Origin: a bacterium
GTDB taxonomy: Bacteria > Planctomycetota > Planctomycetia > Planctomycetales > Planctomycetaceae
Length of the DNA: 64,000 nt
NCBI GenBank assembly: GCA_016125225.1
Contig: WGME01000002.1
Coordinates: 124,001-188,000 of the forward strand
Reading direction: 5' to 3'
Part shown: positions 3,374-38,696 of the stretch, piece by piece
Position numbering within the stretch: the stretch's first letter is position 1
Layout: the number at the start of each line of letters is the position of its first letter
Translations under genes and position numbers: made by a program
Notes under the pieces: model-generated
The model's database searches: none
The model's input: the letters and a program-made list of their open reading frames with translations, nothing else
What the model was told of the DNA's origin: nothing

Positions 3374-3535
3374 GGTGAGTCAAGAGTCCAGTGTCGAGAG
3401 TCCAGAGCCGAAAATGCCAAATCGGCGCGATTCAAGTGCCGCGCTTTCGGGAAAGCTGCGAAACACGTAGAATCGTCCGCGAACCGGGTAGGCGTCAAGC
3501 GCATCGGTTCAATTTGCTGTTAGCCATGCAACTTT

Positions 3536-3636: not shown

Positions 3637-5736
3637 ATGACCGCACGACGCATTCTTGTCACTTCCGCACTCCCCTATGCCAACGGGCATATTCACCTGG
3701 GGCATCTGGTCGAGTACATTCAGACCGACATCTGGGTGCGCTTCCAGAAACTCCGCAGCCACCGCTGCGTTTACATCTGTGCCGATGACACCCACGGCAC
3801 GGCGATCATGATCCGTGCGCGACAGGAAGGCCGGCCGGAAACCGAACTGATCGCCGATATGCGGGAAGCCCATCTCCGCGACTTCACGGCATTCGATATT
3901 GCCTTCGACAACTACGGCAGCACGAACAGCGAATCAATGCGAAAGTTCTGCCACGAAATCTGGGCAGCTCTCCGCAATAAAGGCCTGATCGCTGAACGCG
4001 ATGTCACGCAATTGTACGATCCAGAAGCACAGACCTTTCTCGCCGATCGGTTTGTGAAGGGGACCTGTCCGAATCCCGATTGTCATGCTGCCGATCAATA
4101 TGGTGACAACTGCGAAGTCTGCGGCCGGACTTACTCACCGACGGAACTAATCAACCCCAAAAGCACACTGACGGGTGCCACCCCGGAAGTCCGCACGGCA
4201 CGACATCTGTTCGTGCAGATCGAGCAGCTGCACCAGTTTTTGAATGACTGGACGCAATGCGGCGAGCATCTGCAGGATGAAGTCGCCAACTATTTGAAGG
4301 GGCACTTCCTCAGCGAACCACTGCGAGATTGGGATGTCTCACGCCCGGCCCCCTACTTTGGCTTCGAGATTCCAGACAGCCCCGGCAACTACTGGTATGT
4401 GTGGTTTGATGCACCGATTGGGTATATCGGTTCCACGGCTGACTGGTGCGAAAAGCATGGCGAAGATGTGACGACATGGTGGAAACCCCATTTAGCCGCC
4501 GGTTGTTCACAACCGGCGGGGAATGCCCCCGGTTGCGAGCAACCAGGGGCTCAATGTGAGATCCACCACTTTATCGGCAAGGACATCACCTACTTCCATA
4601 CGCTGTTCTGGCCAGCCATGCTGCATGCAGCGGAGTTTAATCTGCCGCACAAGGTGCACATTCACGGTTTTCTGACGGTTGATGGCGAAAAGATGTCAAA
4701 ACGTCGTGGCACATTCGTGATGGCCTCGACTTACGCCAAGCATCTCGACGCGGCGTACCTGCGGTACTACTACGCTTCCAAGTTGGGATCACGGCTCGAT
4801 GACCTCGATCTTAATCTCGAAGAGTTCATCGCGAAGGTGAACTCCGACCTTGTGGGGAAGGTGGTCAATCTCGCCAGTCGTACGGCAAAGTTCGCCCAGG
4901 GTTCAGGTTTGTCCGCGAGCTATCCGGATGATGACGGTCTGTTCGCTCAGGCAGCTGCGGCTGCGGACGTCATCGCGACGCACTACGAAAACTGTGATTT
5001 CGCTGCCGCCATGCGGGAAATCATGGTGCTCGCGGATCGGGCCAACCGTTATGTCGAAGACCATGCCCCGTGGACGTTGAAGAAAGACCCAGCGAAAGCG
5101 GGCGAGTTGCAGGATGTCTGCACGGTCTCGCTCAATTTGTTCCGGCAGATTGTGGTTTACTTGTCCCCCGTGCTGCCTCGCTTGGCGGAACAGGTGGGGC
5201 AACTGCTGAACTGTCCGATCCAACACTGGAACGACGCCCAAACGCCGCTGATCGGTACCGCCGTCGCTCCGTTTACTCACCTTATGAAGCGAGTGGAACT
5301 CGCACAGGTTCAAGCCATGACTGAAGAGAGCAAGCAAGACGCCGCACCCGTAGCCGAAGTCGCCACCGACTCCGCGGCCTATCTCGAAAAAGAACCGCTG
5401 ACGGCCGAGAACTGCACGATCGATGATTTCGTGAAGGTCGACCTGCGTGTGGCCCGCGTGCTGGAATGCGAAGAAGTCCCCGAATCGAACAAGCTGCTGC
5501 GGATGACCTTGTCGCTCGGCGGCGATCAGAAGCGGAACGTCTTCGCGGGCATCAAGGGGGTCTACAAGCCGGAAGATCTGGTCGGCCGGTTGGTGATCAT
5601 GTGCGCCAATCTCGCCCCGCGCAAAATGAAGTTCGGCCTGAGCGAAGGCATGGTCCTCGCCGCAGGGGCCGGTGGTCAGGAGATCTTCGTGCTGTCTGCC
5701 GACAGCGGTGCTCAACCCGGCATGCGCGTGCATTGA
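3637..5736 (+). CDS. metG: Methionyl-tRNA synthetase, with in-frame repeat insertion
   Basis: A 699-residue class I synthetase that charges tRNA-Met with methionine in the cytoplasm. In order: HIGH-like motif in [10 protein letters not shown] (about 16-24), zinc-knuckle pairs CPNPDC and CEVCG, the [11 protein letters not shown] core, the KMSKR version of the KMSKS loop (352-356), the anticodon-binding helical domain, and a C-terminal Trbp111-type tRNA-binding domain from about residue 590 ([13 protein letters not shown] ... [11 protein letters not shown]). An anomaly lies at residues 285-307: between the usual WWK segment and the HHFIGKDI motif about 20 extra residues are encoded by a palindromic repeat (separate entry). 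The frame is intact, and the rest is normal, so the enzyme is expected to be active. It is convergent with the MBL gene. Confidence 0.95.
4489..4556. repeat. CATTTAGCC palindromic element inside metG
   Basis: Two adjacent hairpins (GCCGGTTGT/ACAACCGGC, then GCCCCCGGTTGCGAGCAACC with its complement) lie inside the metG reading frame, bounded by CATTTAGCC and GGGGCTCAATG. The same arrangement with the same second hairpin occurs in intergenic DNA at 38609-38696. It translates in frame as roughly [22 protein letters not shown], with no stop codon. Confidence 0.85.
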
Positions 5737-21186: not shown

Positions 21187-21220
21187 CATTTAGTCCCCGA
21201 TCTTTCATGACCGGGGGGAT
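21187..21220. repeat. CATTTAG hairpin between TIM-barrel and DUF4870 genes
   Basis: CATTTAGTCCCCGATC, a short loop, then GACCGGGGGGATT form an imperfect hairpin. It begins with the same CATTTAG and a C run as the element at 38609, so it looks like a degenerate single-hairpin member of that family. It could also serve as a weak terminator. Confidence 0.5.
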
Positions 21221-33886: not shown

Positions 33887-33910
33887 GCCCAGGGAAGGCT
33901 TTCCCTGGGC
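33887..33910. terminator. Hairpin between ceramidase-like and pfaD-like genes
   Basis: A perfect 10-bp stem, GCCCAGGGAA / TTCCCTGGGC, with a 4-base loop lies between two convergent genes. A T-rich stretch follows it on the minus strand, less so on the plus strand, so it may act in both directions. Confidence 0.7.
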
Positions 33911-38608: not shown

Positions 38609-38696
38609 CATTTAGCCCCCCGTTGCTCGCAACGGGGGGTGTACTCCTCGTTCATCAACCACATGCCCCCGGTTGCGAGCAACCGGGGGCTAAATG
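38609..38696. repeat. Intact CATTTAGCC palindromic element (two hairpins)
   Basis: The element has perfect 12-bp terminal inverted repeats, CATTTAGCCCCC (38609-38620) and GGGGGCTAAATG (38685-38696). Inside are two perfect hairpins: CCCCCCGTTG/CAACGGGGGG and GCCCCCGGTTG/CAACCGGGGGC, each with a 4-base loop, spaced by about 25 bp. It lies between two convergent genes and may also work as their terminator. The second hairpin matches that within metG (4523-4550) almost base for base. Confidence 0.85.

Follow-up and report, generated by a model that had tools for sequence, protein, structure and literature searches.

The gene for methionyl-tRNA synthetase (metG) in the planctomycete DNA analyzed here, a stretch of 64,000 nt referred to below as the window, carries in frame a complete pair of inverted, REPIN-like hairpins. 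The best explanation of this insert, to which we assign a probability of about 0.85, is that a mobile, non-autonomous palindrome inserted into a surface loop of the enzyme that tolerates additions and that selection kept a frame-preserving, probably neutral version. The gene (positions 3637..5736, plus strand) encodes a class I MetRS of 699 amino acids (Pfam tRNA-synt_1g, E 4.6e-135), in which the motifs HLGH and KMSKR are both intact. It gave the only full-length match in a protein search of this genome (G000) for MetRS, the second row of that search being the palindrome read on the opposite strand.

A palindromic repeat within metG

The element spans 68 nt (4489..4556, plus strand) and encodes residues 285-307, as the first-pass annotation had proposed for a two-hairpin element; the codon of residue 307 is part element and part host. 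A left tag, CATTTAG (4489..4495, plus), is followed by hairpin 1 (4496..4519, plus), a perfect 10-bp stem (CCGCCGGTTG/CAACCGGCGG) with the loop TTCA, in which a paired C:G to G:C change relative to the family consensus is seen. After a spacer of 5 nt between the stems comes the inverted hairpin 2 (4525..4550, minus), with one mismatch in its stem, then TCAATG, the right tag (4550..4556, minus) having the reverse complement CATTGAG where the consensus is CATTTAG. On the plus strand of the window, GCCCCCGGTTGCGAGCAACC is found only at 4525-4544 and at 38665-38684, the latter within an 88-nt intergenic dimer of the same architecture (38609..38696), so that the recurrence of the second hairpin, also claimed previously, holds. 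Relative to the usual 4-residue turn of related enzymes, the net gain is 20 residues, close to the earlier estimate of about 20; the insert contains three cysteines (290, 300 and 307), not the two counted before. Because 68 is not divisible by 3, a bare insertion would shift the frame; starting from a turn of the usual length, 8 nt of the ancestral sequence would have been lost, replaced or adjusted.

The sequence CATTTAGCCNCC, with at most one mismatch, matches the window at 5 places (3 of them exact) against 0.70 expected, and none of 100 shuffles reached 5, so the match between metG and the intergenic element is not due to chance. Searching the genome with an exact-end pattern gave 25 matches, compared to 4 for the reversed control, and the metG copy is the only one of the 25 that reads CATTTAGCCGCC. 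We built a covariance model (R1) on 21 aligned hairpins, with both metG hairpins left out; these were chosen from 31 non-metG hairpin strings, the others having been set aside by eye because they were odd or duplicated another string once trimmed. In the genome search, in which 150 of 3672 first-look candidates were scored, R1 gave at least 140 matches at E <=1, with the two halves of the metG element at 41.2 and 41.1 bits (E ~1e-12). Altogether, G000 has at least 40 CATTTAG-type loci, counting metG; the rows were grouped by hand, and inclusion of the weakest loci (two of them with 20.6 and 16.9 bits) is a matter of judgement. Six further loci among those read have a related hairpin of another type, TTAGCCCCCGGTGAGTCACCGGGGGC and its variants. 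In the 21 aligned hairpins, TTAG beside the stem (within the tag CATTTAG) is invariant or nearly so. The closest link to metG is the copy at C27:6737, which is identical over 35 nt to metG hairpin 2 with its tag and 3 more bases, the two having two departures from the consensus in common.

Apart from metG, the loci of the family look intergenic (39 in G000), most of them having next to them the end of a long, coding-like frame. Among 16 ORFs of at least 100 aa that span CATTTAG copies in G000 with at least 25 residues on either side, metG excluded, there is no case of a Pfam domain extending over the element; one shows a below-cut-off SdpI hit downstream of the element, so its true start probably lies later. 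At C3:95456, a long ORF that looks M20-peptidase-like by eye extends only 9 residues to the left of the element, and we judge that it starts after it. Within the window, a diverged single copy (21187..21216, plus, 28.4 bits) is spanned by a sole ORF of at least 100 aa, in which no Pfam domain was found. The 17 recognizably tagged dimers of at least 60 nt are 67-92 nt long; in 16 of these, one or more of the six frames are open, the total being 42 open frames out of 102, so an open frame by itself is unremarkable. An Rfam search of the entire window at the gathering threshold returned no matches. A second REPIN-like family is also present in G000, in which hairpins of the TTAGCCCCCGGTCAATGACCGGGGGC type form dimers with an overall length of about 80 nt (for example, C37:10706-10789 and C37:467275-467355).

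Some R1 match at E <=0.01 is found in 37 of the 61 genomes of the bacterial family. Among the matches listed, full-length tagged ones above 34 bits come only from G000, from G001 (of the same genus) and from G026, the closest genome by MetG (81%), where the tag in many copies is CATTTCG or CACTTCG. Outside these three, the best match has an E of 4e-8 (G006, G004), a bare score.

A permissive turn in MetRS

Our ortholog set comprises 98 distinct MetG proteins, own sequence included, taken from the best 30 loci of one search and the best 80 of a second; one genome (G002, 64% complete) yielded no MetG. The residues of the insert are absent from all 97 other proteins, among which we looked for the same residues in relatives without the repeat family, an observation that would have spoken for an ancient protein loop, and found none. 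The earlier statement that the usual synthetase has no residues at this site needs qualification: most relatives have a 4-residue turn (for example, NPET) between WWK and EIHH, and nearly all of the best 30 loci, own included, read WWK or similar, then 4 residues, then EIHH. A longer stretch, between two conserved motifs, is 26 residues long in 75 of the 98 proteins, 27-32 in 18 and 33-47 in 5, such that 93 lack an insert of 7 or more residues at the loop. In a quick tree of the 98 proteins, in which the program stars SH-aLRT values of 95 or more, own MetG pairs with the nearest row, L180 (94, unstarred), which has no repeat insert at the loop, and L181 of G001 joins these two next (92, unstarred). 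The tree places G026 nearer to own MetG than G001, although G001 is labelled as the same genus.

In an AlphaFold2 model computed with 43 orthologs (mean pLDDT 87.2), the insert is preceded by a helix that ends at residue 282 and followed by a strand at 307-314. The pLDDT falls below 50 at residues 287-304 and likewise at 570-590 and 690-699, and 541 residues of the model can be superposed on E. coli MetRS (1pfw) at 1.7 A, with a Z of 48.8. Residues 287-304 are accordingly predicted to form a disordered loop in an otherwise confidently modelled MetRS fold. At the RNA level, one long hairpin is predicted for the insert region; the fold of 4480-4565 has -48 kcal/mol compared to -28.3 (sd 3.1) for shuffles (z -6.4; none of 200 reaches -48), which leaves room for an effect on translation.

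All five MetG proteins with 7 or more extra residues at this loop have them from DNA that is repeated in their own genome. Own loop is filled by the CATTTAG family. The loop of G001 (L028/L181) contains the hairpin CCAGGGACCGCAGTCCCTGG, present at 15 places with at most one mismatch (reversed control, 0), and that of L197, which belongs to a different clade of the tree, the hairpin TCTCCCCCTCCGCGGGAGAGGGG, with 92 matches (control, 0), the sole exact one being metG itself. The loops of L220 and L212, starred sisters in the tree with 93.8% identity, contain AAATCTCA-type repeats with 59 and 28 matches, respectively (control, 0); the TCTCCCCCTCCGCGGGAGAGGGG and AAATCTCA counts refer to both strands at up to 3 mismatches, overlapping places included. 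The peptides encoded in the loops of the other lineages (PGTAVPGL, SISPSAGEGS, DKSQ...) are unrelated to each other. As the four repeat families are unrelated, at least four separate insertion events are implied, the loop having taken at least four unrelated families in separate planctomycete lineages. Near residue 570, a linker of MetG has 16 inserts of 5 or more aa; these were tested for hairpin stems only, and we make no claim that the loop at 285-307 is the sole site to accept repeats. Repeats of the AAATCTCA type also occur in frame in long ORFs of G085/G086 (L276, L289 and L280), reading KSQISNLKSEI and similar; of the three hosts, one looks by eye like a PSD1-type protein and another like a TPR protein.

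Coding palindromes in other tRNA synthetases

A second family, CCAGGGA-N6-TCCCTGG, has one copy in the window (33889..33908) and 63 copies in G000 (control, 0), where the stem ends are mostly GGGAT/ATCCC or GGGAA/TTCCC. Of the 51 copies examined for spanning ORFs of at least 180 aa with 50 residues on either side (two antisense ORFs omitted), three are in frame in recognized proteins, namely, LeuRS (ORF residue 313), ValRS (ORF residue 891) and a ThuA/DUF7133 protein; another, at position 3285 of L407 (G000 C26:82250-87150), immediately precedes what appears to be the start of a GlyRS-like gene. The family has 15 copies in G001 (CCAGGGAC), of which 5 are in frame in recognized proteins: MetRS, LeuRS, ValRS, a UvrA-like protein (L310) and an oxoprolinase (L311), where the copy lies between the two hydantoinase domains. 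Four of these hosts were scanned, MetRS was already known, and the other ten copies were judged by ORF context. One copy was also seen, by eye and uncounted, in frame in an Hsp70-like ORF of G002 (L175).

The LeuRS gene of G000 (L375, C27:934800-938700) has three in-frame palindromes, at ORF residues of about 188, 313 and 463; those at 188, with one extra base in the stem (a bulge), and 463 are single TTAG-type hairpins that both read VLAPGESPG. Together with MetRS and ValRS, this makes five in-frame synthetase palindromes in G000. The CCAGGGA-type palindrome in ValRS occupies different sites in the two congeners, residue 891 in G000 (L376, C6:97900-101900) and about residue 803 in G001 (L313, C14). 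One LeuRS site is common to G000 (L348/L375) and G001 (L345), with the stem GGGAT/ATCCC in the former and GGGAC/GTCCC in the latter, each variant being typical of its own genome, as if the coding repeat had been re-inserted or had changed in concert with its family. Among relatives, both ValRS and LeuRS vary in length at or near the palindrome sites. ValRS of G001 has further repeat-like inserts, ESQESRVKSQ and ARSASDGSL, and upstream of metG (~3374-3410 of the window) there is a GAGTC-type short repeat, a type from which ESQESRVKSQ is encoded in LeuRS and ValRS of G001.

Counting two families in G000 and one in its congener G001, nine copies lie in frame in recognized proteins (one CATTTAG and eight CCAGGGA), and six of these are in genes of class I aminoacyl-tRNA synthetases (MetRS, LeuRS and ValRS). 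Synthetase genes amount to about 38 kb in all, a share that we take as 0.65 to 1%. At this share, six of nine gives a binomial probability below 1e-10, and the three of 15 G001 copies in synthetases give a Poisson probability of about 1e-4; both values are post hoc and use approximate gene lengths, and since two of the six synthetase copies perhaps share one old LeuRS insertion, both are weakened. That class I synthetases are long and rich in loops may be enough to explain the concentration there; preferential targeting, or conversion of one copy by another, may also play a part. We tentatively entertain, while leaning slightly against it, the idea that class I synthetase genes are a preferred and recurrent harbor for coding palindromes in planctomycetes, with the LeuRS copies re-invaded by, or converted with, the genomic family.

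Known systems and the origin of the insert

As short, genome-repeated and mostly intergenic palindromes, the CATTTAG elements are REPs in the generic sense. The GTAG and CGTC super-families of Di Nocera are ruled out by the tag CATTTAG, with TTAG beside the stem. The metG copy (68 nt) and the 17 dimers of 67-92 nt each consist of two inverted REPs close together, as REPINs do, and presumably act as a unit. Absent from the orthologs and with the frame kept, the metG copy also has, from its sequence, the appearance of an in-frame coding palindrome.

Rickettsia palindromic elements were reportedly described by Ogata in 2000 and 2002. They are reported for Rickettsia in the parts of PMC3733652 and PMC6649704 covered here, and the first-pass comparison with them, by description alone, is apt in the sense that the metG element works like them, as a palindrome in frame in a probably working protein; the closer precedent, however, is REPs in ORFs. 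The same parts of PMC3733652 describe GTAG and CGTC REPs as palindromes of 20-40 nt, mostly intergenic and near stop codons; of the intragenic inserts, more than half come as dimers or groups and code for 20 to 30 residues, the hosts across bacteria include tRNA-synthetase and uvrA genes, recB of two Xanthomonas species has different REPs at about one site, and Planctomycetes, with R. baltica named, have REPs. Thus intragenic REPs, dimers of 20 to 30 residues and synthetase or uvrA hosts are already known from that source, as far as covered, and the phenomenon is less novel than the earlier annotation held. The metG element resembles these inserts as an intragenic dimer that adds about 20 residues to a synthetase and differs from them in its tag; the recurrent MetRS loop found here is not described in the parts of PMC3733652 covered. 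REPINs are presented in the covered parts of PMC3116915 as REP doublets that form hairpins in extragenic space; the metG element likewise has two inverted REPs and a spacer, with a long hairpin predicted, but lies within coding sequence. In the mitochondria of Nematomorpha, according to the parts of PMC6649704 covered, both arms of coding palindromes encode conserved residues and are translated, whereas the metG arms encode an added, unconserved loop, the translation of which we infer. Neither a recurrent MetRS turn nor a cluster in three synthetases of one genus was found in the open-access literature, in which few subscription journals are covered.

In REPIN/RAYT systems, a RAYT (Y1 transposase) gene has copies of its own REP on its flanks; no cognate RAYT was found beside the CATTTAG family in the G000 loci read. 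None of the four matches to the Y1 transposase domain (PF01797) in G000 is flanked by the family in these loci, the nearest match of any kind being a TTAG-type hairpin about 2.5 kb from the Y1 gene on C36. In G001, two of nine PF01797 matches have an R1 match less than 1 kb away, at 959 nt with an ORF between in one case and at 222 nt in the other; the hairpin at 222 nt is untagged and continues into a T-stretch, and GTAG-tagged hairpins are closer to the gene. In G026, the closest of nine PF01797 matches is 1.8 kb from an R1 match. In L144 of G001 (C37, ~1940-2130), a Y1 gene adjoins GTAG-tagged inverted hairpins (GTAGCCCTGTCGCTCCGCGACAGG), an arrangement like the published one of GTAG REPs and RAYTs. 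In G000, a Y1 gene located, by eye, between gyrase- or topoisomerase-like genes (L056, C3:54979-55320) has hairpins of a different family, CCCCAGGCGTGAGCCTGGGG and CCCCACGCTCACGCGTGGGG, nearby.

In the scenario that we favor, a REPIN-like palindrome would have been copied into the metG turn between the helix (WWK) and the strand before HHFIGKD, perhaps transposed in trans by a Y1 transposase of the IS200/RAYT type. Most hits in metG would be lethal to the cell; this one would have survived because the turn tolerates unstructured extra residues and a small accompanying change preserved the frame, after which the insert would be translated as a disordered loop and drift. The mobile origin is favored because R1, built without metG, finds both halves at about 41 bits, because hairpin 2 and its tag are part of the 35 nt identical to C27:6737, and because the added residues are missing from 97 orthologs, including the nearest; the permissive nature of the loop is favored by the low pLDDT at 287-304 within a fold matching 1pfw and by the other repeats taken up at the same turn in at least three other lineages. 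The earlier proposal that a palindrome entered metG and stayed open is thus supported by every test run, with mobility read from the copies; transposition, translation and neutrality are what we infer from these observations, and the insert is probably neutral.

It counts against this scenario that the G000 loci read show no Y1 gene with the family on its flanks. The sequence comes from one assembly, which would suit an assembly or sequencing artefact, but we consider an artefact highly improbable given that the metG copy has variants of its own (the sole CATTTAGCCGCC), lies well inside contig C1 and keeps the frame across 699 codons. The absence of a flanking Y1 gene would be in line with a palindrome that formed on the spot, through template switching at a quasi-palindrome, or that recombination with another copy patched into metG, and the LeuRS palindrome that shows each species' typical stem at a common site could reflect conversion of this kind; however, neither tag and neither hairpin is missing from the metG copy, which is identical over 35 nt to one found on a different contig, and an origin in place would not yield a full dimer that belongs to a family of 40 or more loci, which makes this route unlikely. 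An ancient loop of MetRS, similar to the repeat but not derived from it, could draw on the mild variation between the conserved motifs (26 to 32 residues in 93 of 98 proteins) and is scarcely credible, being contradicted by the ortholog set, in which the sequence occurs in none of the 97 other proteins, and by a DNA-level match that covers both hairpins and both tags.

It is also quite unlikely that the loop or hairpin has been recruited, with the mRNA hairpin pacing the translation of MetRS or the cysteines sensing redox state or metal. The paired change preserved in hairpin 1 hints at a force that keeps the palindrome, against plain neutrality, and the very stable RNA fold, the three cysteines within 285-307 and the recurrence of palindromes in MetRS, LeuRS and ValRS of the genus point the same way. 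Against recruitment, other lineages fill the loop with unrelated peptides that have no feature in common, 93 of 98 orthologs do without an insert of 7 or more residues, and the insert is predicted to be disordered. The entry of a mobile palindrome into a tolerant loop remains the reading that we prefer.

It is a testable question why six of the nine in-frame copies in two related genomes reside in synthetase genes, which probably account for well under 1% of the sequence. The metG element itself is a clean case of a mobile repeat that would have donated residues to an essential enzyme, the ortholog set confining the insert to one lineage, and the MetRS turn appears to be a natural permissive site that has been used at least four times.
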